A stretch of DNA of 64,000 bases from Collinsella aerofaciens ATCC 25986 (GTDB lineage Bacteria; Actinomycetota; Coriobacteriia; Coriobacteriales; Coriobacteriaceae): contig NZ_CP048433.1 in the NCBI RefSeq assembly GCF_010509075.1, forward strand, positions 372,001 through 436,000. Direction: 5' to 3'. Positions within the stretch are counted from its first letter, which is position 1. Each line of letters opens with the position of its first letter. Positions 26,612 through 46,708 of the stretch are shown here, one piece after another. The position numbers and the translations under genes are program-made. The notes beneath the pieces were generated by a model. The model did no database searches and was not told where the DNA came from. It saw only the letters and a program-made list of their open reading frames with translations.

Positions 26612-26638
26612 AGGCATCCGAGAGGAGAAAACATACCC

Positions 26639-28402
26639 ATGAAGGCACTCTACAATGACGGTTCGGTGGCCGAGCTCCCGCAGGACGAGGTCACGCACGT
26701 CATCCGTCACTCTGCCGCGCACATCATGGCGCAGGCCATCAAGCGCCTGTACCCCCAGGCCGACTTTGCCTACGGCCCCGCGACCGACAACGGCTTCTAC
26801 TACGACGTCGACCTGCCCGAGGGCGTTAAGATCAGCGAGGACGACTTCCCCGCGATCGAGGCCGAGATGAAGAAGATCGTTAAGGAGAACCTCAAGTTCT
26901 CCGTGTATGAGAAGCCTCGCGCCGAGGCCATCGCCCTTATGGAGGAGCGCGGCGAGAAGTACAAGGTCGAGCACATCGGCGACCTGGACGACGACGCCCG
27001 CATCACCTTCTATCAGCAGGGCGACTACATCGACATGTGCGTCGGCCCCCACATCTGCTACACCAAGGCCCTCAAGGCCTTTAAGCTCACCGGCGTTTCG
27101 GGCGCCTACTGGAAGGGCGACAAGGACAACAAGATGCTCACCCGCATCAACGGCGTCGCCTTTGCCACCAAGGAAGAGCTCGACGAGCACATGCACATGC
27201 TGGAGGAGGCCAAGAAGCGCGACCACCGCAAGATCGGCCGCGAGATGGACCTCTTTATGATGCGCGACGAGGCCCCCGGCTTCCCGTTCTTCCTGCCCAA
27301 CGGCATGATTCTTAAGAACACGCTGCTGGACTACTGGCGCGAGATTCACCACAAGGCCGGCTACGTGGAGATTTCCACGCCGCTTATCATGAACAAGCAG
27401 CTGTGGAAGACCTCGGGCCACTGGGACCACTACAAGGACAACATGTACTCCACCGTCATCGACGACGAAGAGTACTGCATTAAGCCCATGAACTGCCCGG
27501 GCGGCGTGCTGGTGTACGCCTCCAAGCCGCACTCCTACCGCGAGCTGCCCATTCGCGCCGGCGAGATTGGCCTGGTGCACCGCCACGAGCTGCGCGGTGC
27601 CCTGCACGGCCTGTTCCGCGTGCGCTGCTTTAACCAGGACGACGCCCACCTGTTTGTGCGTCCCGACCAGCTGACCGACGAGATCGTGGGCGTGGTCAAC
27701 CTCATCGACTCCGTGTACCAAAAGTTTGGCTTTAAGTACCACGTTGAGCTTTCTACCCGTCCCGAGGACTCCATGGGTTCGGACGAGGACTGGGCTCGTG
27801 CCGAGGAGGGCCTGCGCACCGCTCTGGAGCAGCTGCACATGGACTACGAGGTCAACGAGGGCGACGGCGCCTTCTACGGCCCCAAGATCGACTTCCACCT
27901 GGAGGACTCGCTCGGTCGTACCTGGCAGTGCGGCACCGTCCAGCTCGACTTCCAGATGCCGCTCAACTTTGATCTGGAGTACGTGGACGCCGACGGCACC
28001 AAGAAGCGCCCCATCATGCTGCATCGCGTGTGCTTTGGCTCCATCGAGCGTTTCATCGGTATTCTGATTGAGCACTTTGCGGGCAAGTTCCCCACCTGGC
28101 TGGCTCCCGTGCAGGTCAAGGCGCTTCCCGTCTCCGAGAAGAGTCGCGACTACGCTCACGAGGTGTGCGCCAAGCTGGAGGAGGCCGGCATCCGCGTGGT
28201 CTGCGACGATCGCGACGAGAAGATCGGCTACAAGATCCGCGAGGCCCGCAGCATCGATCGCGTGCCCTACATGCTCATCCTGGGCGAGAAGGAGGTCGAG
28301 GCCGGCAACATCTCCGTCCGCGACCGCTCTAACGAGACCGTTCAGATGAGCGTTGACGAGTTTGTGGCCAAGGTGCTCGAGGAGATCAAGACTCGCGCCT
28401 AA
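26639..28402 (+). CDS. thrS: Threonyl-tRNA synthetase lacking the TGS domain
   Basis: A class II synthetase that charges tRNA-Thr and hydrolyses Ser-tRNA. The editing domain is present, with H24-x3-H28 and C134-x3-H138. The catalytic core shows MNCPGG, RHELRGALHGLFRVR with QDDAH (motif 2), and MLHR (motif 3); these include the C, H and H zinc ligands. The anticodon-binding domain ends the protein. At 587 residues it lacks the roughly 60-residue N-terminal TGS domain of the E. coli enzyme (642 residues). ATG 26639 follows GAGAGGAG at a rather long distance. Confidence 0.94.
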   Translation: MKALYNDGSVAELPQDEVTHVIRHSAAHIMAQAIKRLYPQADFAYGPATDNGFYYDVDLPEGVKISEDDFPAIEAEMKKIVKENLKFSVYEKPRAEAIALMEERGEKYKVEHIGDLDDDARITFYQQGDYIDMCVGPHICYTKALKAFKLTGVSGAYWKGDKDNKMLTRINGVAFATKEELDEHMHMLEEAKKRDHRKIGREMDLFMMRDEAPGFPFFLPNGMILKNTLLDYWREIHHKAGYVEISTPLIMNKQLWKTSGHWDHYKDNMYSTVIDDEEYCIKPMNCPGGVLVYASKPHSYRELPIRAGEIGLVHRHELRGALHGLFRVRCFNQDDAHLFVRPDQLTDEIVGVVNLIDSVYQKFGFKYHVELSTRPEDSMGSDEDWARAEEGLRTALEQLHMDYEVNEGDGAFYGPKIDFHLEDSLGRTWQCGTVQLDFQMPLNFDLEYVDADGTKKRPIMLHRVCFGSIERFIGILIEHFAGKFPTWLAPVQVKALPVSEKSRDYAHEVCAKLEEAGIRVVCDDRDEKIGYKIREARSIDRVPYMLILGEKEVEAGNISVRDRSNETVQMSVDEFVAKVLEEIKTRA

Positions 28403-29449: not shown

Positions 29450-30277
29450 TTGCACCGGCTGTTCGTTCGCATTTTTGAATTTACCGATTGGGGGGGGGTC
29501 CTGGAGGACAGGGCCGTACGTTGGATTTTGGCTGCTAAAGAAGTAACAGAGAGCTGTGTGCCTGCGGGGGCGGCGCTTATCGCTCAGGCCATGGACCGGC
29601 GCGAAGGCGCCGGCCGCTACAAGGCCATGCAATCCATCATGGAATGGGACCGCTCGCGACTGGCCTATAGGGCCGTGAAGCGCACGTTCGACATCGTTTT
29701 CAGCGGTGCCGTGCTGGCCGTCATCGCCATCCCCAGCCTGGTTTTAGCAGCGGCCATCCGCATCGAGAGCGAGGGCAACCCCTTCTACAGCCAGATCCGC
29801 GTGGGCCAGACCCGCCCCGACGGCAGCCTGACCACCTTCCGCATGTGGAAGTTCCGCAGCATGTACAAGGACGCCGACGAGCGCCTCGCCGAGCTCAAGG
29901 ATCAGAACGAGATCGCCGGCGCCATGTTCAAGATGAAGGAGGATCCCCGCGTCACCAGGATCGGCAGGTTCATCCGCAAGCATTCCATCGACGAGTTCCC
30001 GCAGTTCCTGAACGTGTTCCTGGGGCAGATGTCCGTGGTTGGGCCCAGGCCGCCGCTGCCGAATGAGGTGGCACAGTACACCGAGTACGACCTGCAGCGT
30101 CTGGCCGTGAAGCCCGGGATCACCGGCTGGTGGCAGGTCACGGAGCGCAACTTGACCGGGCTCGACGGCATGGTCCGCCGGGACCTGGAGTACATCGCCA
30201 AGCGCGGCCCCATAACGGACCTCAAGATCGTCGTCCTCACGGTGATCGAGGTCTTCACCGGCAAGGGTGCGTGCTAG
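29450..30277 (+). CDS. Undecaprenyl-phosphate sugar-1-phosphate transferase (priming enzyme)
   Basis: A 275-residue bacterial sugar transferase (WcaJ/WbaP C-terminal type) that puts the first sugar phosphate on the lipid carrier. One membrane helix (VFSGAVLAVIAIPSLVLAAA, about 83-102) precedes the catalytic core with FRMWKFRSMYKDAD, EFPQFLNVFLGQMSVVGPRP and KPGITGWWQV. The start is uncertain: TTG 29450 has AGGGAG just upstream, while ATG 29591 lacks a binding site. Between them lies a run of nine G (29490-29498), which would be coding if the TTG is used. The stop abuts the next start. Confidence 0.88.
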   Translation: MHRLFVRIFEFTDWGGVLEDRAVRWILAAKEVTESCVPAGAALIAQAMDRREGAGRYKAMQSIMEWDRSRLAYRAVKRTFDIVFSGAVLAVIAIPSLVLAAAIRIESEGNPFYSQIRVGQTRPDGSLTTFRMWKFRSMYKDADERLAELKDQNEIAGAMFKMKEDPRVTRIGRFIRKHSIDEFPQFLNVFLGQMSVVGPRPPLPNEVAQYTEYDLQRLAVKPGITGWWQVTERNLTGLDGMVRRDLEYIAKRGPITDLKIVVLTVIEVFTGKGAC

Positions 30278-31402
30278 ATGCGCATCGCGATGATCGGACA
30301 CAAGAGATACGGCTCCCGCGAGGGAGGCGTGGAGGTCGTCGTGACCGAGCTCGCCCGCCGCATGGCGGCGCTAGGCCACGAGGTCACCTGCTACGACCGC
30401 TCCGGCGCGGACGTCATGACCGGCGACGCCGCGGACTGCCGCGAGCGCGTCGTCGACGGCGTGCGCGTCGTGCCGGTTAAGACAATCGACAGGAAGGGCC
30501 TCGCCGCCCTCTCGTCCTCATATTTTGCTACCAAGGCGGCTATCAAGGACCGCCCCGACGTGATCCATTATCACGCCGAGGGCCCTTGCGTGCCGCTCGC
30601 GCTGGCCAAGCACGCTGGCATTCGCACCGTGGCGACCATCCACGGCCTGGATTGGCAGCGTGCCAAGTGGGGCAGGCTCGCCAGCACCTACATCAAGATG
30701 GGGGAGAAGACCGCCGCCACCAAGGCCGACGGCCTTATCGTCTTGTCCAAATCGGTCCAGTCCTACTTTCAGGACGTCTACGGCCGCACGGCGACGTTCA
30801 TCCCCAACGGTATCGAGCCGAAGCAGCCGAGGCCGGCCAACCGGATAAAGGAGAAGTGGGGGCTCGATGCGGGCTCCTACCTGCTGTACCTGGGCAGGCT
30901 CGTCCCCGAGAAGCGGCCCGAGCTCCTGATCGAGGCCTTCGAGAAGTTCGACACGGACAAGAGGCTCGTCATCGCCGGCGGCGGATCGGACACCTCCGAG
31001 TACGAGGCGTCCCTTCGCGAGGCCGCCCAGGGCGACCCCCGCGTCCTCTTCACCGGGTTCGTCAACGGCGAGCCCCTGGAGGAGCTGTACTCCAACTGCT
31101 ACGCCTACGTGCTGCCCTCCGACGTGGAGGGCATGCCCATGAGCCTGCTGGAGGCCATGGCATACGGCCGCTGCTGCGTGACGAGCGACATCCCCGAGTG
31201 CGCGGACGTCCTCGCCGGCAACGGCGTGACGTTCGAGAAGGGCAGTGCCGATTCCCTGCAGGCCGCGCTGCAAGGCCTACTTGCTGAAGGCGACCGCGGG
31301 AGAGTCCTTGGCGGGGCCGCCAAGGCGCATGTCGAGAAAACCTGCAACTGGGATTCCGTCATCGAGCGGACCCTTGCCGTCTACGGGGGTGAAGGCCTAT
31401 GA
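30278..31402 (+). CDS. Glycosyltransferase family 4
   Basis: A 374-residue GT-B retaining transferase. The N-terminal MRIAMIGHKRYGSREGGVEV is the acceptor-side glycine loop. The C-terminal nucleotide-sugar site has YLLYLGRLVPEKRPELLIEA, then VLPSDVEGMPMSLLEAMAYG with the E-x7-E motif. It is expected to extend the lipid-linked repeat unit on the cytoplasmic face. It begins at the base after the upstream stop and overlaps the next gene by four bases. The donor sugar cannot be told. Confidence 0.88.
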   Translation: MRIAMIGHKRYGSREGGVEVVVTELARRMAALGHEVTCYDRSGADVMTGDAADCRERVVDGVRVVPVKTIDRKGLAALSSSYFATKAAIKDRPDVIHYHAEGPCVPLALAKHAGIRTVATIHGLDWQRAKWGRLASTYIKMGEKTAATKADGLIVLSKSVQSYFQDVYGRTATFIPNGIEPKQPRPANRIKEKWGLDAGSYLLYLGRLVPEKRPELLIEAFEKFDTDKRLVIAGGGSDTSEYEASLREAAQGDPRVLFTGFVNGEPLEELYSNCYAYVLPSDVEGMPMSLLEAMAYGRCCVTSDIPECADVLAGNGVTFEKGSADSLQAALQGLLAEGDRGRVLGGAAKAHVEKTCNWDSVIERTLAVYGGEGL

Positions 31403-32682
31403 GGATCCTTCTCGTAAACAAGTTCCACTACCGCAAGGGCGGTGCGGAGACCTATTACCTCACCGTCGGATCCGAGCTTGAGCGCATGGGGCATGAGGTG
31501 GCCTATTTCTCGATGAGGCACCCTGACAACCTGCCCTGCGGGTGGGATAAGTATTTCGTGACGCAGCGCGAGTACAACAACGTCAAGAATCCGCTCAAGG
31601 CGGCGCGCGACGGCATGGCGCTGATTTATTCGCCAGAGGCGAAGCGCAACTTCCAGGCCCTCTGCGAGGAGTTCCGCCCCGATGTCGTCCACCTCAACAA
31701 CGTGCACAGGCAGATCACGCTATCCATTCTCGACGCCCCCTACCTGAGGGAGAACAAGGTTCCGGTCTTCTACACGGCCCACGATTACGTGACCGTCTGC
31801 CCCGGCTATCTCATGCTCGACGGCGACGGGCGCGTCTGCGACGCGTGCCTCGAGGACGGGCGCTACCGCCACTGTATCGAGCGCCGCTGCGTGAAGGGCT
31901 CGCGCGCGAAGAGCGCGCTGGCGGCGATGGAGGCGTCCTTCAACAGGGCCCATAAGTCAAACCGAAGGATCGACAGGGTAATCGCCCCCTCCAGGTTCAT
32001 GCGCTCCAAGCTCATCGAGGGCGGTTGGCCCGAGGACAAGGTCGTCTTCCTGCAGAACTTCGCCGACGACGCGATCCTCGACCGCGCGGCGAATGCCGGG
32101 GCGGATGCGACCGACAGGGAGAACCCCTACCTCCTGTTCTTCGGGCGGCTCTCTGCCGAGAAGGGCGTCGACACGCTGCTGAGGGCCTTCGATGCCGCCT
32201 TGCCGAACCTTCCGCAGGGCATGCGCCTGGTTGTCGTCGGCGACGGCCCGGATGCCGCCGAATTCAAAACGCTCGCGTCTTCGTTGGGCTGTGCGTCTCG
32301 CATCGAGTTCGCCGGTTATCAGACCGGTGGGGCACTGCAAGCGTATGTGGAGAGAGCGTCTCTCGCCATCGCGAGTTCGAGATGGCGAGAGAACATGCCG
32401 TACTCGATCGTGGAGGCTTTCGCTGCCGGCACGCCCGTCGTTGGCACAAATATTGGCGGAATCCCTGAGTTGGTCGACGAAGGGAAAACGGGGTTCATTT
32501 GCGAGCCCGGGGATGTCCCGTCGATGGCGGATGCCATCTTGCGCGGCACGAGTGCGTTCTTGGACCGGTCCGCTTACTCGATGCTTCAGCGCAACTGCCG
32601 CTCCTACGTCATGGAAAACTGCTCGCGCGAGAAGTTCATGAACGACCTCGTGAACCTGTATAAGGAGTCAATCGATGGCTAA
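31399..32682 (+). CDS. Glycosyltransferase family 4
   Basis: A 427-residue GT4 enzyme. It opens MRILLVNKFHYRKGGAETYY, has a cysteine-rich stretch near 132-158 (CPGYLMLDGDGRVCDACLED) seen in a subset of GT4 proteins, and carries LLFFGRLSAEKGVDTLLRAF and the E-x7-E region YSIVEAFAAGTPVVGTNIGG. ATG 31399 overlaps the preceding stop, and its own end overlaps the next start by eight bases. It acts in repeat-unit assembly; linkage unknown. Confidence 0.88.
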   Translation: MRILLVNKFHYRKGGAETYYLTVGSELERMGHEVAYFSMRHPDNLPCGWDKYFVTQREYNNVKNPLKAARDGMALIYSPEAKRNFQALCEEFRPDVVHLNNVHRQITLSILDAPYLRENKVPVFYTAHDYVTVCPGYLMLDGDGRVCDACLEDGRYRHCIERRCVKGSRAKSALAAMEASFNRAHKSNRRIDRVIAPSRFMRSKLIEGGWPEDKVVFLQNFADDAILDRAANAGADATDRENPYLLFFGRLSAEKGVDTLLRAFDAALPNLPQGMRLVVVGDGPDAAEFKTLASSLGCASRIEFAGYQTGGALQAYVERASLAIASSRWRENMPYSIVEAFAAGTPVVGTNIGGIPELVDEGKTGFICEPGDVPSMADAILRGTSAFLDRSAYSMLQRNCRSYVMENCSREKFMNDLVNLYKESIDG

Positions 32683-33688
32683 CGGCCATAACAGCATCAA
32701 GAGGATCGTGCACCGCTCCTGCGAGGAGATCGGCGCCACGTTCCGAATCGCCAGGGCCACGTCGTGGCCCGAGGCGATCAACACGTTTCGGGCGAAGCTC
32801 GACATCCAGGTCATGAGCCGCAACGGGTACAAGGAACCGCCTGCGGTAAGGGGGCGGTTGCTGCGCAAGCACGAGACCGTGCTCAAATATCTCGAGAACC
32901 GCTTCGGCGATTTCTTCGAGTCATACGACTACGATGCGCCGCTGCCGCCGTCCGATCCCGCCCTCGAGGGGAAGATCTGGATGTGCTGGTGGCAGGGCGA
33001 GGAGAACGCGCCCGAGATCGTGAGGGCGTGCATCGACTCCGTGCGCCGCAACGCCGGCGGGCACGAGGTCATCGTCATAACGGAAGAGAATCTCTCCGAC
33101 TACGCTCATATCCCCGATTGGGTTTTCGACAAGGTGCGCGCGGGTGTCATGTCGCGCACCCATCTTTCTGACCTTTTAAGGCTGTCCCTGCTCGCGGAGC
33201 ACGGCGGCCTGTGGCTCGACGCGACGTTCTTCTGTACCGGCTCGCTCGATGAGTACATGGACCTTCCGATTTGGTCCATCAAGCGACCCGATTATCTCCA
33301 CGCATCCGTTGCCTGTGGCATGTTTGCCAACTACTCGCTTGGTTGCGATTCGTCTAACCGTCGGGTGTTCGCAACGCTTAGGGACTTTTACCTTGAGTAT
33401 TGGGCCCAGAGTAATGAACTTGTGGATTATCTGCTCACCGACTATCTCATCGTCCTGGCTCAGCGCCGTGACCCCTCGATCGCCGCGGCGTTCACGTCGA
33501 TTGGGTCCAACAACCCCCGTTGCGACGATCTCATCTCGCTGCTGGACGAACCCTTTGACCGGCACGTCTGGGACGGACTCACCTCTGACACAAGGTTGTT
33601 CAAGCTTTCATGGAAGCAAGATTATCCGAGCCAATCCAATGGAATTGAATCTTTTTATGGCGCTCTGGTTTGTGGCGACTGTCGCTAG
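32675..33688 (+). CDS. Capsular polysaccharide synthesis glycosyltransferase (Caps_synth/GT32-like)
   Basis: A 337-residue protein of the capsular polysaccharide synthesis family. KIWMCWWQGEENAPEIVRAC near 104 and the catalytic region LSDLLRLSLLAEHGGLWLDATF (165-190, with the D-x-D-like LWLDA) are typical. It overlaps the preceding gene. Base composition changes within the gene: the first 190 codons are GC-rich and the last 120 AT-richer, like the genes that follow. This suggests a recombination junction inside or near the gene. Confidence 0.82.
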   Translation: MANGHNSIKRIVHRSCEEIGATFRIARATSWPEAINTFRAKLDIQVMSRNGYKEPPAVRGRLLRKHETVLKYLENRFGDFFESYDYDAPLPPSDPALEGKIWMCWWQGEENAPEIVRACIDSVRRNAGGHEVIVITEENLSDYAHIPDWVFDKVRAGVMSRTHLSDLLRLSLLAEHGGLWLDATFFCTGSLDEYMDLPIWSIKRPDYLHASVACGMFANYSLGCDSSNRRVFATLRDFYLEYWAQSNELVDYLLTDYLIVLAQRRDPSIAAAFTSIGSNNPRCDDLISLLDEPFDRHVWDGLTSDTRLFKLSWKQDYPSQSNGIESFYGALVCGDCR

Positions 33689-33706
33689 GTTAGTGAGGAG
33701 GGCATT

Positions 33707-34714
33707 GTGGCTAATCCCCTTTTAAGCATAGTGGTTCCCATTTACAACTCATCCGAGACGATTGAGGAATGTGTCGCTTCTCTTGTTTCGCAAACCATTA
33801 ATGACCTGGAGATTTTACTCATCGATGACGGGTCTACAGACGATAGTCTTGAGAAGTGCAAAAAGCTTGCATCCAAGGACAATCGCATCAGGGTTTTCAC
33901 AAAAGAAAATGCGGGCCAGGGAATTGCGCGTAATTATGGTTTAGATTTAGCGACTGGGGAATTCATTGCTTTTGTCGATTCAGACGATACCTGTACGAAG
34001 GCAATGTATGAAACGTTGCTGAGCAGGGCAAGAGATTCCGGTAGCGATGTCGTCGTTGGCGGTTACTGTGATTTATTGAATGGCGCGGTTGTTGAGAGTC
34101 ATCCAGCTGGGTCAATGGAACTGCGCAGTAAAGACGAAATTGATAGGTACATGGCGGATTTGGTATCCACGCCAGGCCATGATGATAGTGCGGGCTGTAT
34201 CGCTGTTTGGGACTCTGTTTACCGTCGACTGCTGATTGAAGAGAATGGGGTTCAGTTTCCGTCAGAAAGAGATGTCTACTCAGAGGATCTAGTTTTTAAG
34301 CTTAGAGCTCTCGCTTCTTCTTCGAGTGTCAGCGTCGTTCCCAATTGTTTGTACGAATACCACGTTAGTGGCAAGTCTTATTCAAAATGCGTGAATGACG
34401 ATGTTCTTAAAAGGATAAATGCTCTAAGCCAAGTTCTTGCGGATGAGTTTGATCGGAGACTGGATAGATTCGATTTCCGTAAGAGAAATGCAGGCAGGGC
34501 TTTTGCGTCGCTTAGATTTTCTTTGAGGCGCGTTCCTTGCGGTGCTGGTCGTACGGCTTTTTTCGATGCCCTTGTAAATGATGAAAAGCTATACAACTGT
34601 TTGTCAGCCTATCAGTCGTCGAGCTTAATTAATGCAGCAATTTATAAATTGCTGTTAACAAGAAAACCTCGATTAATTTCAGCTGTATTCAATCTAATTG
34701 CCCTGAAAGGATAA
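33707..34714 (+). CDS. Glycosyltransferase family 2
   Basis: A 335-residue GT-A enzyme. It shows LLSIVVPIYNSSETIEECVA at the N-terminus, LLIDDGSTDDS near 38, and the D-x-D-like FVDSDDTCTK near 87. GTG 33707 follows GAGGAGGG. It is clearly AT-richer than the first four operon genes and probably acquired. It adds a sugar to the repeat unit; donor and linkage unknown. Confidence 0.86.
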   Translation: MANPLLSIVVPIYNSSETIEECVASLVSQTINDLEILLIDDGSTDDSLEKCKKLASKDNRIRVFTKENAGQGIARNYGLDLATGEFIAFVDSDDTCTKAMYETLLSRARDSGSDVVVGGYCDLLNGAVVESHPAGSMELRSKDEIDRYMADLVSTPGHDDSAGCIAVWDSVYRRLLIEENGVQFPSERDVYSEDLVFKLRALASSSSVSVVPNCLYEYHVSGKSYSKCVNDDVLKRINALSQVLADEFDRRLDRFDFRKRNAGRAFASLRFSLRRVPCGAGRTAFFDALVNDEKLYNCLSAYQSSSLINAAIYKLLLTRKPRLISAVFNLIALKG

Positions 34715-34716
34715 TT

Positions 34717-35811
34717 ATGAAAGTCGGAGTCATTACATTTCATCGTGCCATTAACTATGGAGCCGCTTTGCAGACCTATGCTTTGCAAAAAGCCTTGGCA
34801 GGGCTGGGTTTCGATTCCGAAGTTATTGATTATCGTTGCGATCATATGGAAGAGTTGTATAAACTAGTCGGCGGCTTTTCGACGAAATCTGTTAAACAAA
34901 ACATTCGTAGCTTCATGAATTATTTTCCCGCAAAGAGAAAAATGAAGAGCTTTCGTTCGATGATAAATGAAAATATGAAGTTAAGCCCCATGTATGACTC
35001 TACAACCATCAATCAGTCGAACGAGCGATACGACGTGTTCATTACTGGTAGTGACCAGGTGTTTAATTATGCCTGTTCTGATTTTGATAAGAATTACTTC
35101 CTATCATTTGTCGATGACAAACAGAAGATTAATTCGTATGCTGCATCGTTCGGTATTAGCGATATTCCGGTTGAGTATCGGGCGGAATATGCTCGACTGT
35201 TATCTCGGTTTAATCATATTTCGGTTCGTGAGGAGTCTGGTAAAAAAATGGTCCGCGAGCTTGCGGGCAAAGATAGTGAACTGCACGTCGATCCTGTATT
35301 TTTGCTTGATGCGGCAGAGTGGTCGCGGCTCGCTAAAGACCCTGACTTCGACAACTATATCCTCATCTATCGCCTCAACAAGTCGAATGTCATTAATGAT
35401 TTTGCAAGGTTGTTAGCTAAAAAGACCGGTAAGAAGATTGTAAACATAGGTCAAGATTATATTGACAGGTTGAAGAACCGCGATTTTTACGGTGGAATGG
35501 ACACTTCGGTACAGGAATTCCTTGGCCTGTTCAAGAATGCTGACTATGTTGTAACTAATTCTTTCCACGGAACTGCTTTTTCCATTATCTTTGAGCGTCA
35601 GTTTTACGTAGAAACTAAGCAAAAAGATTTCAAGAAGAACGATCGTGCTGAGAATCTGTTGAAGTTGACTGGTCTTACTGACTCCATTATTGAATCCTTG
35701 GATGACTGTGAATTAGATATATCCCGCGATTTTTGTACGGCCCGCAAGGTAATTGCTGAGGAAAAGGTTCGTGCTCTTTCTTATCTGAACGGTATTTGCA
35801 CCAATGAATAG
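34717..35811 (+). CDS. Polysaccharide pyruvyl transferase family protein
   Basis: A 364-residue member of the polysaccharide pyruvyl transferase family (CsaB/WcaK type), which adds ketal pyruvate to sugars from phosphoenolpyruvate. The family opening MKVGVITFHRAINYGAALQT is clear, and FITGSDQVFNYACSDF near 109 and VTNSFHGTAFSIIFERQF near 279 match known motifs. It starts two bases after the preceding stop and overlaps the next gene. Pyruvylation would give the polymer negative charge. Confidence 0.84.
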   Translation: MKVGVITFHRAINYGAALQTYALQKALAGLGFDSEVIDYRCDHMEELYKLVGGFSTKSVKQNIRSFMNYFPAKRKMKSFRSMINENMKLSPMYDSTTINQSNERYDVFITGSDQVFNYACSDFDKNYFLSFVDDKQKINSYAASFGISDIPVEYRAEYARLLSRFNHISVREESGKKMVRELAGKDSELHVDPVFLLDAAEWSRLAKDPDFDNYILIYRLNKSNVINDFARLLAKKTGKKIVNIGQDYIDRLKNRDFYGGMDTSVQEFLGLFKNADYVVTNSFHGTAFSIIFERQFYVETKQKDFKKNDRAENLLKLTGLTDSIIESLDDCELDISRDFCTARKVIAEEKVRALSYLNGICTNE

Positions 35812-37045
35812 AGCACGACAATTAATCTCATCTGTTCCAATTGAAGATTTCTTTATACCGTTTCTGTTGCTGATATTAGTTTTTTCTACCAACAACCGTC
35901 TTATCTTGATCATGAAACCTGTCGCTTTACTCATGATCTCTGTGTCGCTATTTCTCTCGCTAGCTTCGAAAAGGAGGTTTAGCAAGGGGGCACCTTTGAA
36001 ATACCTGTTCTGCGCGTTTGTGTTTCTAATTGGATTCAGTTTTACTTATACAGGAGATCGTTCTGCTTTTAAGAATTACATTCCTTATATACTTGCCGCT
36101 CTTGTCATTGTTCTATTTGAATACGATGACTATTTTTATTCTATTTTCTACAAATTATTTAATTTGTTTTTCTGGATTTTTATTGCGTCGATGTATTTAG
36201 AGTTACTAAATCCAGGCTTGTTCAGGTCAGTATTTTCATTTTTGTCTTTGGGGAAAAATTTAGTTGTAAGATCGACTGATGGTGTAGCAATTGCTGGACT
36301 AGCATTCGAAAAGGCAGATGCGGCATTTCTCTGCAACTTAGGGCTCGGAGTTCTTTTTGCGAAAATTTTTAATCGTGGACTTAACCTGAGTCAACTCTTT
36401 CAGTTGGGTATTGTATTCGGCGCGTTGATGATGACCGGCAAACGCACCTTATTTCTGATTCCCTTAGTCAGCATCGTCGCCTTCGCTTTGTTTTTCTCTC
36501 GAAGTCATAGAGTGGCAAAAGCTATGGCGGTCCTACTTGCGGTGTTTGTGTGTCTGGCTGTTACGTATACGTTTGTTCCTCAAGTTTCGCTTGTGTTTGA
36601 GCGTTTTTTAGCTGACAACGGAGATCCATTAAGCGGTAGAGAAGTTTTTTGGACATATGCAATGGAAATGTTTAGAAGTTCTCCGTTATTGGGAGAGGGT
36701 TTTCTGTCATTCAATGCATATGTGAACAGCAGGGGCTTCTTATACTACGGTGAACCTTGGCAATTTCAGGCGCATAACGTTTACTTGCAACTGCTTGCTG
36801 AGCTTGGAATCGTTGGGCTTTTGTTGTTTGTCAGCATGTTGGCCATTTTGATATTTGGTTTTGGCCGTTCTGCAAAGAAGGATCCAAATATATTCAATCT
36901 AACGGCATTTTACTGGGCTGTTCTTATCGCGATATATAGCATGACGGGCAACACAATTTACTATGCCTGTCAGTTGATGGTATTTGCTGTAGTAGTCAAC
37001 ATTTATTTGAAATATATAAGTCCTAGGGAGGGTTATTCTAAATGA
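35804..37045 (+). CDS. O-antigen polymerase/ligase-like membrane protein (Wzy)
   Basis: A 413-residue protein with about ten hydrophobic segments. Near 275-330 is the periplasmic-type loop with LSGREVFWTYAMEMFRSSPL and FQAHNVYLQLLAELGIVGLL, typical of the Wzy_C/O-antigen ligase family. It is the likely polymerase that joins repeat units outside the membrane. It is low in GC, as is usual for Wzy. It overlaps both neighbours by a few bases. Confidence 0.8.
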   Translation: MNRARQLISSVPIEDFFIPFLLLILVFSTNNRLILIMKPVALLMISVSLFLSLASKRRFSKGAPLKYLFCAFVFLIGFSFTYTGDRSAFKNYIPYILAALVIVLFEYDDYFYSIFYKLFNLFFWIFIASMYLELLNPGLFRSVFSFLSLGKNLVVRSTDGVAIAGLAFEKADAAFLCNLGLGVLFAKIFNRGLNLSQLFQLGIVFGALMMTGKRTLFLIPLVSIVAFALFFSRSHRVAKAMAVLLAVFVCLAVTYTFVPQVSLVFERFLADNGDPLSGREVFWTYAMEMFRSSPLLGEGFLSFNAYVNSRGFLYYGEPWQFQAHNVYLQLLAELGIVGLLLFVSMLAILIFGFGRSAKKDPNIFNLTAFYWAVLIAIYSMTGNTIYYACQLMVFAVVVNIYLKYISPREGYSK

Positions 37046-37983
37046 ATCCGTTAGTTAGCATAATTACCCCTGCTTATAACGCGGGGGGCTATCTGGATTC
37101 TTTCTTCCTATCTGTCTTAGAGCAAGATTACGATAATTACGAGATGATTATCGTTAATGATGGATCAACTGATGATACAGAGAATAAGATCCTCTCATAT
37201 AAAAAACTGTTCGATCGTCGGGGCATACGATTCGTTTACTTGAATCAAGAAAACGGTGGACAGGCGAAAGCGCTGAACTTGGCATTTCCGCATATTCGTG
37301 GCGAATATTTCATCTGGCCTGATTCCGATGATGTTCTCTGCCCAGATAACATCTCAGCAAAGGTCAAGTTCATGACCGCCCATCCCGATTATGCTTTGGG
37401 TATTTCGTGGGCTGAATATATTGATGAAGCTGGGAATAGCCTTGGGCTCTTAAAGCGGGTTCCTGATAAGAACGATAATCTATTTCGGGACTTGTTGATT
37501 AGTAAAAATGTATATTTTTGCCCTGGTATTTACATAATGAAAACTTCGGCATTTGTTGAATCTTATCCCGCTCTGGCGATTGATGAAAGCCGTGCTGGGC
37601 AGAACTATCAACTGCTCTTGCCTATGGCCTATGGATATCAATATGGATACATTGACAAAGTTCTGTACAAATATGTTCTGCATCCCTCTAGTCATTCAAA
37701 CGACGGTCTCCAAAATGAAAATATGCAATTGAGACGGTTTGAGGAGCATGAGCGCTTATTGAAACGTTTGATTGCATCCATCTGTTCCGAGGGCGATAAC
37801 GCAATCTATCAAAAGTTGGTTGCTGTCCATTTTGCGCGGCTGTATCTACGAATAGCAAATCAGCATTGCGACGTTGTTAAAGCGCGTGATTGTTTTGCTA
37901 GATTGATTCGGTTAAAAGCTGCTTCGCTTAAGGACTGTGCGTATGCATGCGCTACGGCGATGGGTTTATCTTTAAAGAAGTGA
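37042..37983 (+). CDS. Glycosyltransferase family 2
   Basis: A 313-residue GT-A enzyme with VSIITPAYNAGGYLDSFFLS at the start, MIIVNDGSTDDTENK near 35 and FIWPDSDDVLCPDN near 88 (D-x-D region). ATG 37042 overlaps the wzy-like stop by four bases. This is the second GT2 of the operon. The set of GT4, GT4, Caps_synth, GT2 and GT2 plus the priming enzyme suggests a repeat unit of about six sugars, if each acts once. Confidence 0.86.
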   Translation: MNPLVSIITPAYNAGGYLDSFFLSVLEQDYDNYEMIIVNDGSTDDTENKILSYKKLFDRRGIRFVYLNQENGGQAKALNLAFPHIRGEYFIWPDSDDVLCPDNISAKVKFMTAHPDYALGISWAEYIDEAGNSLGLLKRVPDKNDNLFRDLLISKNVYFCPGIYIMKTSAFVESYPALAIDESRAGQNYQLLLPMAYGYQYGYIDKVLYKYVLHPSSHSNDGLQNENMQLRRFEEHERLLKRLIASICSEGDNAIYQKLVAVHFARLYLRIANQHCDVVKARDCFARLIRLKAASLKDCAYACATAMGLSLKK

Positions 37984-37988
37984 GATGA

Positions 37989-39500
37989 ATGGGAAGAACG
38001 AGTAAATTTGTATTAAATTCCGCTTCGACGGCTTTGTTGCAAGTAGTGACGATGGTGGCCGGGTTCATCACTCCCCGCTTTTTACTGATGGCATACGGAT
38101 CCGATGTTAACGGTCTTATTTCCTCCATCAACCAGTTTATTACTTACTTTAATCTGGTCGAAGCGGGGCTCTCGAGCGCGGCCGTATATTCGCTTTATAA
38201 GCCAATCGCTGAAAATGATCATGGCAAGATAAATCGCATCGTAACCGCGGCTCGTAATTTCTATATAAAATCAGGCTTCATTTTTGTTGGCCTAGTTTTT
38301 GTTCTGGCAATAGTCTATCCGTGGATTACCCATACTGAGGTCTTGGATCATCAGACTATTTTTCTTCTTGTGTTGGTTCTTGGCGTAAACGGAGCTTTGG
38401 AGTTTTTTACTCTTGCAAAATATAGAGCTTTGCTGACCGCAGACCAAAAAACTTACGTAATTTCTTTTGCATCGATCGTATATACGATTCTAAACACTGT
38501 AATCGTTGTCGTAATGTCGATGCTTAGGGTTAATATTTTAACTTTACGCGTCGTTGCATTGCTTTCAATATTTGCGCGTAGCATGATCTTGTTCGTTTAC
38601 ATCAAGTTAAACTATAAATTCATTCGCTATGACGCTGATCCGGACTATGCAGCAATGGATAAGCGTTGGAGTGCTTTATACCTCCAAATTGTGCAGACCG
38701 TGCAAAATGCATCGCCCGCTGTATTAATCACCTTATTCTCGACCCTTAAAATGGTGAGCGTTTATTCTGTATATAACATGGTCATGTCAGGTATTAACGG
38801 AATAATGTCAGTTTTCTCTACGGGTGTGTCTGCTGGTTTCGGAGAGCTGCTGGTCAAGGATGACAGGCGGGCCTTTACGAAGGCGTATAGGGATTTTGAA
38901 TATCTCTACTACGTAATGGCAAGCGTGGTTTATGGCGTAACGCTTGCTACAATCCTGCCGTTTGTTCACGTATACACTCATGGCGTAACGGATGTTGAAT
39001 ACACGAATCTATACTTCGCCTTGTTGTTTGTTTTGAACGGCGTATTTTACAACCTCAAGACTCCGCAGGGCATGCTGGTTATTGCGGCGGGCCTATATAA
39101 AGAAACAAGGATTCAAAGCACCATTCAAGCGGCTATTTTACTTGTGGGAGGTGTAATTCTTGGGTTCAAATTCGGTTTAATCGGCGTAATGGCGGCCTCT
39201 TGTTTGTCTAACCTCTACCGTTGTATCGATTTGCTTTTCTTCATTCCAAAAACGGTAACGCATCTTTCGCTCGGACCAACTTTTAAAAATATGATAGAGA
39301 TGTTGTTTATGGTGGCGGCAATAGCTATCGTGTCGCATTTTATTTTTAGCACCTGGCCGGGAAGTCTTCTGACATGGCTCTTGTATGGAGCCTGCAATCT
39401 CGTTTTGGGCCTAGCGATCGTTCTCGGTTTCCATGCCGTATTTGAGCACAAGAGCTTTCATATCATCATTGATAGGCTAAATTCGCTATTGGGGAGGTAA
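37989..39500 (+). CDS. Polysaccharide flippase (Wzx, MOP superfamily)
   Basis: A 503-residue protein with 12-14 predicted membrane helices, starting NSASTALLQVVTMVAGFITP, a typical Wzx opening. It should flip the lipid-linked repeat unit to the outer face for polymerisation by the 35804-37045 product. ATG 37989 comes five bases after the preceding stop. Low GC, as in the neighbours. Confidence 0.86.
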   Translation: MGRTSKFVLNSASTALLQVVTMVAGFITPRFLLMAYGSDVNGLISSINQFITYFNLVEAGLSSAAVYSLYKPIAENDHGKINRIVTAARNFYIKSGFIFVGLVFVLAIVYPWITHTEVLDHQTIFLLVLVLGVNGALEFFTLAKYRALLTADQKTYVISFASIVYTILNTVIVVVMSMLRVNILTLRVVALLSIFARSMILFVYIKLNYKFIRYDADPDYAAMDKRWSALYLQIVQTVQNASPAVLITLFSTLKMVSVYSVYNMVMSGINGIMSVFSTGVSAGFGELLVKDDRRAFTKAYRDFEYLYYVMASVVYGVTLATILPFVHVYTHGVTDVEYTNLYFALLFVLNGVFYNLKTPQGMLVIAAGLYKETRIQSTIQAAILLVGGVILGFKFGLIGVMAASCLSNLYRCIDLLFFIPKTVTHLSLGPTFKNMIEMLFMVAAIAIVSHFIFSTWPGSLLTWLLYGACNLVLGLAIVLGFHAVFEHKSFHIIIDRLNSLLGR

Positions 39501-39508
39501 ATAAGGTA

Positions 39509-40678
39509 ATGGTTGAACTATTTGAAAAGGCTGAACAGTGCTGTGGGTGTACGGCATGTCTAAACATATGTCCGAAGCAGGCGATCTCCATGCTGGAGGA
39601 CCAGAAAGGCTTCCTCTATCCCAAGATTGATGGTTCAAAGTGTGTAGAGTGCGGTCTATGTCAAAAGGTCTGTCCTTTTAAGGTTGATGGATTAGCGGGC
39701 GGTAAGTTTTCAAAAATTGCCTACGCGGTCAAAAATAAAGACAATACTGAACGTGCGCAAAGCAGTTCTGGTGCGGTATTTATCGAAGTTGCTAAAGCTG
39801 TGCTTGGGTCTGACGGCGTTGTGTATGGCGTTAGGCTTGATGATGTGCACCGTGCGATGCACGACAGAGCTAGCTCAATTGAGTCTGCTAGGAAGTTTCA
39901 GGGCTCAAAATACGTGCAGAGTTATAAGGGGAGTATCTTCCAAGAGATTAAGCGCGATTTGAAAGCCGGCAATACAGTTTTGTTTACGGGAACACCTTGC
40001 GAAGTCGCTGGATTGAAGCGCTTTCTTGGAGTTCCTTACGACAATCTCGTGACGGTGGATATTATTTGCCATGGCACTCCAAGCCCCGGTTCTTTTGATG
40101 ACCATATTCGAGCTTTGGAGAAGAAATATTCCTCAAAGATTTCCAAGATTAGCTTTAGAAATAAACAATACGGCTGGAGAAACCAAGAACTTTGGATAAA
40201 GTTCAATAATGGTGAAATTTACCATAATCCCATTTGGGAAGATGAATACTATCGCCTCTTTACTGGAAATTACCTATTGAGAGATTCATGCTATTCGTGT
40301 CCCTTCGCCAGTATGAACCGCCCGGGAGATATCACAATTGGCGATTTTTGGAACATAAATAACGTGAAGCCGGATTTCGAAGACAAGCTTGGCGTTTCTT
40401 CAATCATAGTTAATACCGAAAAGGGGCAAGATCTGATTACTGAAATTTTGACTTCTTTTGAGTATTTTGAAGTTAGCTTGGATGAGTGCACGCAGCGCAA
40501 CCTTCAAGCTCCGTCCCCTAAACCAGATGATTTTGATTCCTTTAGGGCCGATTGGGAGCAGCATGGGCTCGACTATTGTCGAAAGAAATATGCTTCCATG
40601 GGATTTGGGGAGAGGATTAGACGCACTCTATCCCCTGTTAAAAAGAGGGTAATGAAAGTAATAAAGCGAGGTATATAG
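39509..40678 (+). CDS. Coenzyme F420 hydrogenase/dehydrogenase beta-subunit family Fe-S protein
   Basis: A 389-residue protein. Two 4Fe-4S ferredoxin motifs open it: CCGCTACLNICP (about 11-22) and CVECGLCQKVCPF (about 45-57). The F420 hydrogenase/dehydrogenase beta domain follows (VLFTGTPCEVAGLKRFLG, IICHGTPSPGSFDDHI), with further cysteines in DSCYSCPFA. Homologues are common in glycan operons next to pyruvyl transferases. F420 use is not implied. A redox or sugar-modifying role is inferred. It is the last gene of the operon. Confidence 0.82.
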   Translation: MVELFEKAEQCCGCTACLNICPKQAISMLEDQKGFLYPKIDGSKCVECGLCQKVCPFKVDGLAGGKFSKIAYAVKNKDNTERAQSSSGAVFIEVAKAVLGSDGVVYGVRLDDVHRAMHDRASSIESARKFQGSKYVQSYKGSIFQEIKRDLKAGNTVLFTGTPCEVAGLKRFLGVPYDNLVTVDIICHGTPSPGSFDDHIRALEKKYSSKISKISFRNKQYGWRNQELWIKFNNGEIYHNPIWEDEYYRLFTGNYLLRDSCYSCPFASMNRPGDITIGDFWNINNVKPDFEDKLGVSSIIVNTEKGQDLITEILTSFEYFEVSLDECTQRNLQAPSPKPDDFDSFRADWEQHGLDYCRKKYASMGFGERIRRTLSPVKKRVMKVIKRGI

Positions 40679-43245: not shown

Positions 43246-44607
43246 GGTACCGTCAAGATTCTTTCGCAAATTGATTTAGCCGTCTCCGGCCCCGTCCTCT
43301 TCTAGCCCTCCGCCTTTCCCCTCAGCTCGTCCATCTCCTCCAGCTTCGACATGTCCAAGTACCTCCTCTTGCCCCACTCGTGCTCCACTATGTACTTCAG
43401 CCTCGCCGTCACCAACATCAGAGCCGAATTGCCGTCTGGGAAGGTCCCGACGACCCTCGTCCTCCTCCTGATCTCGCGGTTGATGCGCTCGATCCCGTTG
43501 TTCGTCCTGATCCGGCGCCAGTGCTCCGGTGGGAATTCCGTGTAGGCAAGCGTCTCGGCGAACCCGTCGCGCACCGTCCTCGCGGCCGCCCCGAGCCTCA
43601 TCGATTCCAGCTCCTCCGCCACCTCCTCGGCTTTTCTGGCGCATGCCTCGCGCGATTCCTGCGCGTGGATCGCCTTCAGCATGCGCGCCGCGGCCTTCCG
43701 CCTGGTCACGGGAACCCTTCCCAGCACGTTGCGGTAGAAATGCACCGTGCAGCGCTGGTAGCGGGCCCCGGGGAACACCTCCTCGAGCGCACCGAGCATC
43801 CCCGCGCACTTGTCGCCGGTGACGAGCCGTACGCCGGAGAGCCCGCGTCCCTTGAGCCAGGAGAAGAATTCGCGCCAGGACTCCGCGGACTCGGTGTACC
43901 CCTCGGAGCAGCCGATGACCTCCCGGTCGCCGGCGGAGTTGACGCCGATGGCGACCAGCACGGCCACGTTCTCGTAGGACCCTCCCCAGCTGCGCTTGAG
44001 GTAGATACCGTCGACGAAGACGTAGGGGTAGCCGCCCTCGAGCGGCCTCTGCCGCCATGTCTCGATGGACGCGAAGGCCCTCTCGTTGAGGTTGGAGACG
44101 GTGCCGGAGGACACCGGCGCTCCCCACAGGAGCTCGGAGACGTCCTCGATCCTCCTGGTGGAGACGCCCGCCAGGTACATCTCGACGATGGCCTCCTCGA
44201 CCGAGGTCTCGCGCCTGCGGTAGCGCTCGATGACGGCCGTCTGGAAGGTCGCCCCGCGGAGCTTCGGCACGCTGAGCTCGACTTCCCCGGCGCCCGTGAC
44301 GAGCCTCCTCGTGTAGTGGCCGCTGCGGTAGGCCTCCCGGCCCGCCGTCCTCTCGTAGCGCTCGGCCCCGACGAGCTCGGACGCCTCCTCGTCGAGCAGT
44401 GCGTTGAGCGTCTCCTCGACGGTCTTCCTCACCAGATTCTTTATGTCGTTGCGCAGCGACTCCTCGTCGACTGATACGATGTTCGCAGACACGGCCCGTG
44501 CCCCCTTCGTCGGTGATTTGTTGTTTAGTCGCTAGAAATCATATGACGGGGCGCGGGCCGTGTTCCGCTATGCGGTTGTCAATTTGCGAAAGAAATTATG
44601 CGTCACC
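43246..44607 (-). mobile_element. IS256-family insertion sequence, copy 2 (no target duplication)
   Basis: The same 1362-bp element as 19387-20748, in opposite orientation, with both terminal repeats complete. The flanking octamers differ (CGTCCTAA at 43238-43245 and TAGTCAAC at 44608-44615), so the expected duplication is missing. It truncates an S8 peptidase gene on its upper side and lies 44 bases from the IS21 element on its lower side. This points to a deletion or recombination after insertion. Confidence 0.93.
43302..44492 (-). CDS. IS256-family (Mutator-type) transposase, second copy
   Basis: A 396-residue protein identical to the product of 19502-20692, with the same DDE residues and GTG start. 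The intact frame suggests it is active. The pair of inverted copies bounds 22.5 kb and could support inversion by homologous recombination. Confidence 0.95.
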   Translation of the reverse strand: MSANIVSVDEESLRNDIKNLVRKTVEETLNALLDEEASELVGAERYERTAGREAYRSGHYTRRLVTGAGEVELSVPKLRGATFQTAVIERYRRRETSVEEAIVEMYLAGVSTRRIEDVSELLWGAPVSSGTVSNLNERAFASIETWRQRPLEGGYPYVFVDGIYLKRSWGGSYENVAVLVAIGVNSAGDREVIGCSEGYTESAESWREFFSWLKGRGLSGVRLVTGDKCAGMLGALEEVFPGARYQRCTVHFYRNVLGRVPVTRRKAAARMLKAIHAQESREACARKAEEVAEELESMRLGAAARTVRDGFAETLAYTEFPPEHWRRIRTNNGIERINREIRRRTRVVGTFPDGNSALMLVTARLKYIVEHEWGKRRYLDMSKLEEMDELRGKAEG

Positions 44608-45281
44608 TAGTCAACCCCTTGATCGCGATTGCATTTTGGAAAGTAGCAAAGGGTTGCCCGTGCGACAGAAGGATGAGTGTTTCTGACGGCTGGAATCGGT
44701 ATCTTGTAGTTGTATGTTTCGTAATCGGTGACGGTCCCCGTAATGAGGAACTTAATTTCATCGTTTCTGCTTTTAATTACATCGTTAATATGAATCGGTA
44801 CTACACCATAGCCAAGAGTGTTCATATCCGAATGCTGATTCCATGATATTGATGAATCGATCAAGAGCGCCTTCGCTGACTCGCAGCTAAGGTGCATTTT
44901 GTAGATTAGATAAGCTGCTTTTCTTGCGACAAGGGGCGCTGCGAGGGATGTGCCCATATCCGTTTTTGGCCTGTCGCTTCCATAGCAGTTGAGCGGTTCG
45001 TCTATGTCTCCACCATAGTATGAAACATCGGGCTTATGCTGAAAATGGAGCACAGGACCTCTCCGAGTATATGAAGCGGGACTTTTATCACGCCTTACCG
45101 AGTTGACTACGAGAGCGTTGACGGAGTCCGCTGGAGACCCTATTCGGTCTGTTGAGCCATCGTGATTGTTTGTGCCGGCAACGACAAACAGAACATCATA
45201 TTCTGCCTGCAATTTATCTAGTAGGGCGGCTTCGGGTGATTGTATGTAAAGGGGAGGCGTTAATGCGCCTGGCTTGGAATG
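44607..45281 (-). pseudogene. Remnant of an S8 (subtilisin-like) peptidase gene
   Basis: The open frame encodes a fragment with the oxyanion-region VLFVVAGTNNHDGS and the catalytic-serine motif DMGTSLAAPLVARKAAYL. The Asp and His regions that should lie N-terminal are absent, because the frame meets a stop at 45282-45284. The C-terminus is cut by the IS copy, and the final TAG straddles the IS border. Larger relatives of about 700 residues often pair with an AAA ATPase. This remnant cannot make an active enzyme. Confidence 0.75.
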
Positions 45282-45290
45282 TCATATTGA

Positions 45291-45335
45291 GTTGCCAATT
45301 GGCAACAAGTCGAATATAGTTAGCATTATGCTAAC
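45291..45335. promoter_or_regulatory. Two palindromic operator candidates of the TAC module
   Basis: GTTGCCAATTGGCAAC (45291-45306) and GTTAGCATTATGCTAAC (45319-45335) are perfect palindromes 12 bases apart, just upstream of the toxin start. MqsA-type antitoxins autoregulate by binding paired palindromes in this position, so they are good candidates. Promoter boxes are not clear. Confidence 0.65.
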
Positions 45336-45347
45336 TAAGGGGTGGTT

Positions 45348-45695
45348 ATGAATCGAACCAAGCTCCGACCGACATATTCACTTGACGAAGCGAAGTCTTT
45401 GGCTTGCTCGGGAAAGATGATTGTAAATGGTAGGGTGCGCAGACACCTGATGAATCAGTTTGGTTATTTGGACATCGATCATTTCCTTGCTGACCTATTT
45501 GATTATCTGAAGCCTGATGATTTTAGAAAATCCATCGCGCTCGATATGGATGGACCTCTGCATGATGTTTACGCAGATGTCTACGTGTGCCGAGATTTTG
45601 AATGCGAGGATTGGTACGTTAAGTTTTCAATTGATTCCGAAGGCAATGCGCATTTAAACGTTTTGTCTGCGAACATCGATGGATACATTCATTAA
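45348..45695 (+). CDS. mqsR: MqsR-family toxin (RelE-like mRNA interferase)
   Basis: A 115-residue protein similar in pattern to MqsR: TYSLDEAKSLACSGK near 10, then a helical segment, DFRKSIALDMDG near 63 (MqsR has DFYKSM), LHDVYADVYVC and a final WYVKFSIDSEG strand. MqsR cleaves mRNA. ATG 45348 is five bases from AAGGGG. The toxin-first order and the zinc-finger/HTH antitoxin ten bases downstream support the call. I did not verify catalytic residues. Confidence 0.72.
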   Translation: MNRTKLRPTYSLDEAKSLACSGKMIVNGRVRRHLMNQFGYLDIDHFLADLFDYLKPDDFRKSIALDMDGPLHDVYADVYVCRDFECEDWYVKFSIDSEGNAHLNVLSANIDGYIH

Positions 45696-45705
45696 AGGAG
45701 GAGTC

Positions 45706-46218
45706 ATGCGTTGCATGGAATGCGGCAAAGAAATGCAATTTACCACGGCGCCAATGACTGAAATTTACCGTGGCGAGAAAATTACCGTAAAAGGAATTGA
45801 GCATTATGTTTGCGAGTGCGGTAACGATGAAATGACTACTACAGAGGCGACTAAGCTTGCCCATGCACTGGCTTCCCAATATGCTAAGGCTCATGAACTT
45901 TTATCTCCCTCGGATATAAAGGATTTGCGCTCCGATCTTGGTTTGACTCAGCATGAGTTTGAGTCGCTATTAGGGGTTTCAAAACCCACGGCGTCTCGTT
46001 GGGAGAACGGGGCATCGCAGCAATCTATTACCGCAAATAACCTTATGAAGCTCATTCGAGATGTTCCTGAGGTGCGCACTTATCTGGGACTTTCTTCTGG
46101 TGAGATGGCCTCAAGACTTAATGCGTCACGATTTTCGGTGATACTGGGAGGAGAAGCCCCGGCTTATAGGGACTCGGCTCCTTTGGCAGATGAGAATGCC
46201 TTTCGATTGGAGATGTAA
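45706..46218 (+). CDS. mqsA: MqsA-like antitoxin: YgiT zinc finger, HTH domain and C-terminal extension
   Basis: A 170-residue protein. The N-terminal zinc domain has C3-x2-C6 and C36-x-C38 (RCMECGKEM and YVCECGNDE). The XRE-type HTH spans about 70-115 (LRSDLGLTQHEFESLLGVSK, SRWENG). E. coli MqsA has about 131 residues, so the last 45-50 residues are an extension. In TAC systems such a tail binds the SecB-like chaperone. ATG 45706 follows AAAGGAGG. The next gene starts at the base after the stop. Confidence 0.82.
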   Translation: MRCMECGKEMQFTTAPMTEIYRGEKITVKGIEHYVCECGNDEMTTTEATKLAHALASQYAKAHELLSPSDIKDLRSDLGLTQHEFESLLGVSKPTASRWENGASQQSITANNLMKLIRDVPEVRTYLGLSSGEMASRLNASRFSVILGGEAPAYRDSAPLADENAFRLEM

Positions 46219-46644
46219 ATGGAATCGCTTCAGAAGCAACGCATTGAATCTCCGTTGATTACATGCGTGACCAGAAAAGTGGACAGTTTATCATTTGATG
46301 GCGGGATGATTCCGAAAGAGGGCGTCAATAAGTCTGACGTTGAATGCAACGTCCGAAATGCTATTACCAGTGCATTTTCGGACGAAAACGGAGTCAGGTT
46401 TCGTCAGCTCAACTTAGTTATTGAGCTTTTACCTGGCGATGAGGGCCATTATTACCGTTCCGAAATATCCGTTTCTGGCATATATCGCGCTCCTGCGGAT
46501 TTAGATGACGACGCTTTTGACAGGGAGGCACTTAGCACAGGAATGCAGGACCTGTATTCCTATGCAAGGGGCATTATTGAAAATGTCGCCGCTGGTGGAG
46601 TATGGGGCTCACTTTATCTGCCACAGATTGGATTCACTATCTAG
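46219..46644 (+). CDS. SecB-like chaperone of a toxin-antitoxin-chaperone module
   Basis: A 141-residue SecB-fold protein. The end LYSYARGIIENVAAGGVWGSLYLPQIGFTI matches the SecB signature (FPYAR, then the LPPINF-type strand). The middle shows the SecB-like beta strands (LNLVIELLPGDEG, YYRSEISVSGIYRAP). Gram-positive bacteria usually lack general SecB. Its position directly behind an MqsRA pair indicates a TAC chaperone that stabilises the antitoxin. A free-standing export role is unlikely. Confidence 0.75.
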   Translation: MESLQKQRIESPLITCVTRKVDSLSFDGGMIPKEGVNKSDVECNVRNAITSAFSDENGVRFRQLNLVIELLPGDEGHYYRSEISVSGIYRAPADLDDDAFDREALSTGMQDLYSYARGIIENVAAGGVWGSLYLPQIGFTI

Positions 46645-46708
46645 CTCTTGATGTCCCCACATCCTCTAAAAAAGTTCTTAAAACAGCCTTAAAGGCGTTC
46701 CAGCTCGC

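Follow-up and report, generated by a model that had tools for sequence, protein, structure and literature searches.

A probable MqsRAC-type toxin–antitoxin–chaperone module beside the pel genes of Collinsella aerofaciens

The described systems closest to the locus studied here are toxin–antitoxin–chaperone (TAC) modules built on MqsR and MqsA. An MqsRA TAC of Vibrio cholerae is described as controlled by its cognate chaperone (PMC5105189, 2016). MqsRAC of Escherichia coli is reported to protect against T2, and this protection is lost with extra chaperone (PMC9519451, 2022). Further TACs are described with their triggers: CmdTAC is triggered by the capsid protein of T4 (PMC11618068) and HigBAC by the tail protein of lambda (PMC11980606, citing Mets 2024). 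A sequence-only reading of the present locus had held that MqsRA-type TACs are reported more rarely. This has to be qualified, since the 2016 and 2022 papers present one that is chaperone-controlled and one that is anti-phage. No account of TACs in Collinsella or Coriobacteriia was found in the literature covered, although most subscription papers lay outside its scope and absence is thus unproven. MqsRAC-type modules are now added from Coriobacteriia, a Gram-positive group with gut members. The system is of a known kind, in a bacterial group where it has been little noticed so far.

The window is the whole stretch of DNA analysed, 64,000 nucleotides of C. aerofaciens ATCC 25986. Three packed genes had been placed at 45291..46644, and this was borne out: three intact, co-directional ORFs lie tightly packed on the forward strand with gaps of 10 and 0 bases, and the start proposed earlier coincides with the beginning of a palindrome at 45291. 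The features are, in window positions:

45291..45306, no strand: perfect 16-bp palindrome GTTGCCAATTGGCAAC, a possible second operator, the same in the sister copy
45317..45337, no strand: 21-bp palindrome with the core TAGC-N5-GCTA at 45321–45333, the probable MqsA operator
45348..45695, + strand: MqsR-family toxin, 115 aa, ATG start at 45348 (an alternative GTG at 45342 is possible)
45706..46218, + strand: MqsA-family antitoxin with zinc finger and HTH, 170 aa
46096..46215, + strand: antitoxin C-terminal tail, residues 131–170, a candidate chaperone-addiction (ChAD-like) region
46219..46644, + strand: SecB-fold TAC chaperone, 141 aa, beginning right at the antitoxin stop

A plausible ribosome-binding site, judged by eye from the sequence, precedes each of the three ORFs. 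A near-identical module, with a 96% identical chaperone, is present in Collinsella sp. TF06-26 (genome G018, locus L002). The sister copy thus belongs to the genus of the window, in line with the Coriobacteriia-like genome that had been suggested. No PADLOC model matched the toxin or the chaperone.

The toxin scored 29.2 bits against PF15723 (MqsR; cut-off 26.2). A profile built from 35 Coriobacteriia toxins (A3) found E. coli MqsR in the PDB (3hi2) with an E-value of 1.9e-12. Both matches place the toxin in a type II family. As a single sequence (phmmer against the PDB), the toxin found no MqsR, and the best row was ribosomal eS4 (E 0.036); no MqsR model of NCBIfam was matched. Apart from S4e proteins of the ribosome, that PDB search gave nothing but a weak third row. 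All 35 aligned rows agree at D77, Y90, K92 and G112. In the alignment of A3 to E. coli MqsR, Y90 falls on the tyrosine of the Y-L-K stretch, which we take to be the catalytic residue there. Another MqsR is reported to have been made non-toxic by substituting its predicted catalytic tyrosine (PMC10440598).

The antitoxin matched PF15731 (MqsA) with 55.2 bits (cut-off 30) and TIGR03830 with 91.2 bits (cut-off 61.8). It also matched E. coli MqsA/YgiT in the PDB (2kz8 and 3gn5, E 5e-6). By family and by the gap of 10 bases, the next gene after the toxin encodes its cognate antitoxin, in an operon predicted from the layout. The assignment of the pair as MqsR-like and MqsA-like was therefore confirmed by three profiles above their cut-offs.

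One alternative is that the toxin is inactive and the module is kept for the antitoxin and the chaperone. The toxin differs from the sister copy by four nonsynonymous and two synonymous changes, and a HigBA-type module has decayed at the same site in another genome (see below), as this alternative would allow. The resulting dN/dS of 0.54 is uninformative because it comes from only six changes. Moreover, the toxin ORF is intact in both genomes, and the residues invariant in all 35 rows are kept, including the tyrosine aligned with that of E. coli MqsR. We regard loss of toxin activity as highly improbable.

For the third gene, the SecB profile gave a weak result. As a single sequence, the chaperone scored 17.3 bits against PF02556 (E 0.0045), which is under the gathering cut-off of 26, and the match to the NCBIfam SecB model was weak (E 0.073). 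A phmmer search of the PDB returned no SecB and nothing relevant. The SecB assignment came from the profile search and the fold comparison, and it stands on this part of the check. The predicted structure has the four-stranded sheet and long helix of SecB, and the best fold matches include 5mtw, the complex of the Mycobacterium tuberculosis TAC chaperone with its ChAD. The links to SecB and MqsR are drawn from profiles, and for the chaperone also from the fold. By fold and profile, a SecB-like chaperone directly follows the antitoxin (gap 0).

The antitoxin had been described as having a long C-terminal tail. Counted from the HTH's RWE motif to the C-terminus, TAC MqsA of Coriobacteriia have 65–110 residues in 13 of 13 cases, while MqsA without a SecB gene have 36–58 residues in 20 of 21. 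The single long one has 187 residues, owing to a HIRAN domain. The window antitoxin has 73 residues and thus carries the C-terminal extension. With a limit of 60 residues, which was chosen after the lengths had been seen, a long C-terminus occurs in 13 of 13 TAC MqsA versus 1 of 21 without SecB (Fisher p 1.5e-8), so that the tail is not only present but co-occurs with the chaperone. L020 (antitoxin cut by the contig end), L050 (short frame) and L007 (near-copy) were left out of the MqsA tree and the Fisher test, and the near-identical rows of the window and L002 were both kept. The toxin and antitoxin sets also left out L048, L049 and L051 (long antitoxins, divergent toxins) and L052 (no pair). 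On the MqsA tree, the TAC label needs five changes, of which at least three are forced. The association of tail and TAC has only three to five independent pairs, too few for significance. In the three supported pairs, the tail length agrees in 2.5 on average, is equal in 0.5 and is never opposite.

The tail was modelled together with the chaperone on an alignment of the two with chaperone rows (A6). An alignment of an antitoxin–chaperone fusion with both kinds of rows (A5) was rejected: nearly all chaperones had been placed wrongly on the part for the antitoxin, as a local test also showed, and A6 was therefore used instead. Most of the tail is disordered in the model, the exception being a short strand of low confidence at antitoxin residues 139–145. 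A pLDDT below 50 was found for 45 of the 192 residues, 44 of them in residues 1–51 (tail and join), and no confident docking was obtained.

These data bear on the reading that the locus is an ordinary MqsRA pair, next to which a SecB-like gene lies as a bystander, and that the tail is unrelated to the third gene. The docking that is not confident, the weak Pfam score and the few independent contrasts would suit it. Against it stand the co-occurrence of tail and chaperone just given, the strong constraint on the chaperone (dN/dS 0.08 against the sister copy, compared with 0.15 for the antitoxin), its position abutting the antitoxin and the recurrence of this pairing behind HigBA-like pairs. A bystander is the least probable of the readings weighed here, slightly below an inactive toxin. 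We consider it very likely that the module is an MqsRAC-type TAC, in which the tail would make MqsA unstable without the SecB-fold chaperone and loss of the chaperone would free the MqsR RNase.

The antitoxin ends in RLEM and not in AA. A ClpXP-type AA end is described as common in TACs and does not define them; CmdA, like the antitoxins of other known TACs, is described as ending in a ClpXP signal (LAA; PMC11618068). Counted with L002, L007 and L020 excluded, an AA end was found in 6 of 12 MqsA-type and 16 of 23 HigA-type TAC antitoxins (22 of 35 in all), and in 0 of 22 MqsA without SecB.

We compared the likeness of the tails with that of the chaperones. Across families (276 pairs of MqsA and HigA), rho was 0.017, a value reached in 1966 of 5000 permutations, and transfer of the tail together with the chaperone was therefore rejected as a general rule. 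Within families, rho was 0.24 for both (reached in 78 of 2000 permutations for MqsA and 0 of 2000 for HigA). One cross-family pair stands out: the tails of an MqsA (L045:932–1444, − strand) and a HigA (L071) from two Collinsella genomes share EQW...PGG.AA and score 56, with 50 as the best of 40,000 shuffles. This may be a transferred addiction tail. It is a lead only, because it was picked from 276 pairs.

Upstream of the toxin lie two palindromes. When the letters of the 80-bp stretch were shuffled 5000 times, only 4 shuffles had two or more palindromes with arms of 7 or longer. The core TAGC-N5-GCTA occurs once in the whole window. In the 116,770 bases of 35 mqsR loci, some of them near-copies, it occurs 22 times, always within 150 bp upstream of mqsR. 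It precedes mqsR in 22 of the 35 Coriobacteriia modules, made up of 9 of 12 TACs and 13 of 23 others, and is thus conserved. The 13 mqsR genes without the exact core include that of L002, where one arm base differs. We infer that this palindrome is probably the operator at which MqsA autoregulates. The farther palindrome (45291..45306) is absent from the palindromes listed for loci other than L002. It is possibly a second operator, and MqsA may bind either palindrome.

The right-hand neighbours of the module are the pel genes, which had been named as a Pel operon and are supported as such by a PelF equivalog match. IS-damaged DNA had been proposed to the left, where rve, IstB_IS21 and Transposase_mut domains were found. 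Homology to the second Collinsella copy begins at 45262 and continues across the Pel region, at 93% over 12.6 kb. The first pel protein was matched in 12 of 43 genus genomes. Of the ten other than G000 and G018, seven were compared as loci without the module, and G007, G030 and G013 were left out. In six of the seven, homology begins at 46645–46660, directly after the chaperone stop; in the seventh (G011), it begins at 46714. The GC content is 0.456 in the module and 0.587 in the window. Low GC and a homology edge at the last stop codon are signs of a foreign and mobile module, and the earlier suggestion of horizontal gain is consistent with them. The chaperone had no match at 1e-5 among plasmid and phage records; the antitoxin matched five plasmids and one phage, all partially and below 60% identity. 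These collections therefore give no sign that the module is plasmid- or phage-borne.

The interval from thrS to pel (window 26528–46773) is variable in Collinsella and nearly empty in G020. There, a thrS-like gene lies ~0.5 kb from pel, and some 18 kb of the window interval is therefore extra. In the window, the interval starts with a thrS-like gene (26528–28402, synthetase domains) and contains a polysaccharide cluster, IS21-type and Mutator-type transposases, an IetS-like fragment and the TAC. The polysaccharide cluster (exopolysaccharide or capsule) spans 29450–40678 and has a GC content of 0.499. The IetS-like fragment (44607–45281, − strand) comes from an S8 protease of an anti-phage family and corresponds to roughly the central third of the profile. 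The first part, which the fragment lacks, would fall where the TAC begins, and its end is near the Mutator-type transposase.

At the same spot before pel, G010 (L123, reverse complement 350–1118) carries a decayed HigBA-type TAC with a short HigB-like frame. Its HigA-like frame is 76% identical to that of L071 and finishes with 21 residues that resemble the C-terminus of the L071 chaperone (16 of 21 matching). L101 and L102 look similar to this decayed TAC.

In related genomes, the 12–20 kb leading up to pel or to the TAC contain genes that match defence models, namely PDC-M12A/B (G001), AbiD (G002 and G018) and PDC-S20 (G018). Upstream of pel in G011, models of LmuB, AbiLi and an RT-protease were matched. 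The site is thus both mobile and rich in defence genes, which agrees with the possible defence role that had been put forward.

The mechanism is proposed by analogy with characterised TACs, and it is from such relatives that RNase activity, repression, chaperone need, trigger and defence are carried over to the Collinsella module. MqsA would bind and silence the MqsR RNase and would probably regulate its own expression at the TAGC-N5-GCTA palindrome. The C-terminal tail would make MqsA unstable unless it is held by the SecB-fold chaperone, which would be translated just after MqsA. If the chaperone were drawn off, most plausibly by bulk phage structural protein, MqsA would be degraded. The freed MqsR would then cut mRNA, and growth and phage production would stop.

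A TAC could also act as a sentinel of stress or export with no part in phage defence. Unfolded or unexported host proteins would then titrate the chaperone, and MqsR would slow growth. Such a model is put forward for the M. tuberculosis TAC (PMC3968373, PMC4257090), and neither Pfam nor the family profile gave a further SecB match in the rest of the genome. Against this stand the reported protection by E. coli MqsRAC against T2 (PMC9519451) and triggering of CmdTAC by the T4 capsid protein (PMC11618068), together with the AbiD, PDC-M12, PDC-S20 and RT-protease matches upstream of pel in sister genomes. The sentinel is unlikely, though well ahead of the two alternatives above. By analogy, the Collinsella module most likely encodes an RNA-cutting toxin that stops growth, together with an antidote that needs a SecB-like chaperone of its own, and it may guard against phages. 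Should the sensing model hold, this well-bounded module would allow the phage protein that captures a TAC chaperone to be sought outside Proteobacteria.

A close relative of the chaperone was found in 2 of 43 genus genomes, the window's own included. In the class, MqsR was matched in 35 of 396 genomes (33 above the cut-off); four MqsR-like toxins were missed by this search and reached via PF02556 instead. PF02556 itself matched in 14 of 396 class genomes at E 0.05 and in 3 of 396 above the cut-off. With the family profile (A2), SecB-like matches at E 0.001 or better, some of them fragments, were obtained in 42 of 395 order genomes, the samples of class and order being different. These figures suggest that most such chaperones escape surveys that apply the Pfam cut-off for SecB.

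In the order, 38 SecB-like ORFs, a few of them near-copies or fragments, were classified with local models: 3 lie behind MqsRA (one of them already among the 12 TAC modules), 23 behind a HigBA-like pair and 3 behind an HTH antitoxin only, while for 9 no partner was recognised. When the chaperones are placed on a tree, the label for the partner (13 MqsA, 23 HigA) needs seven changes, at least four of them forced by well-supported branches. Among the 23 HigA rows, L068 and L089 had only an HTH antitoxin recognised. The tree left out L007, L072, a repeat of the G269 chaperone, and L092, L097, L101, L102 and L103, the last five being outside 130–170 aa. From these label changes, we infer that chaperones have been exchanged between the MqsRA and HigBA families. 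This agrees with PMC4257090, where SecB is described as repeatedly associated with TA families.

Other arrangements of MqsA were also seen. On the MqsA tree, L043 and L044 fall on the side of the TACs and have no SecB gene; no chaperone trace was found in their surroundings (14–16 kb) at E 10. In L044 (1853–2707, G293), and also in L059, MqsA carries a C-terminal HIRAN domain (PF08797, 43.2 bits) and is paired with MqsR, with no SecB gene nearby. A stretch of G247 is 77% identical to the L044 fusion and has one in-frame stop. In L048, L049 and L051, an MqsR-like toxin is followed by a zinc-finger/HTH antitoxin of 333–339 aa; of these, L048 was scanned and has a Panacea domain. In L055 (7400–10400, G269), an MqsRA-type and a HigBA-type TAC adjoin in convergent orientation. 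Because the HIRAN fusion of L044 is nested among chaperone-linked MqsA on the tree, the sensor part of MqsA appears to be swappable. Tentatively, MqsA might serve Coriobacteriia as a chassis for interchangeable C-terminal sensors (ChAD-like tail with SecB, Panacea, HIRAN), with chaperones moving between MqsRA and HigBA. The moving chaperones would provide a shared, chaperone-based phage-sensor set of monoderm gut bacteria, some of it at the thrS–pel defence site.

Among known systems, MqsR-PanA pairs are already described (PMC10440598). There too, the antitoxin that neutralises MqsR is of the ZBD-HTH type and has a further element at its C-terminus, but this is a Panacea domain (ZBD-HTH-Panacea), whereas the window module has a tail and a chaperone. 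CmdTAC likewise has an antitoxin and a SecB-like chaperone, for which phage sensing is proposed; according to the same source, its toxin is an ADP-ribosyltransferase, and its antitoxin ends in LAA versus RLEM in the window (PMC11618068). HigBA1-SecB(TA) of M. tuberculosis (Rv1955–1957) is built on HigBA, unlike the MqsRA module of the window, and its HigA1 is described as having two tryptophans that matter, W108 and W137 (PMC6377645, PMC5105189), whereas the window tail has no tryptophan. The two TAC chaperones share 12% identity over the aligned fold. The nearest systems are MqsRAC of E. coli C496_10 (PMC9519451) and the MqsRA TAC of V. cholerae RC385 (PMC5105189). They differ from the window module in that its host is Collinsella and its chaperone reaches only 17.3 bits with PF02556. 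For them, chaperone need and phage protection are reported as shown, whereas for the Collinsella module both are proposed by analogy. By the papers' description, on which this likeness is drawn, all three share the same TA families, a SecB-like third gene and a C-terminal extension of the antitoxin.
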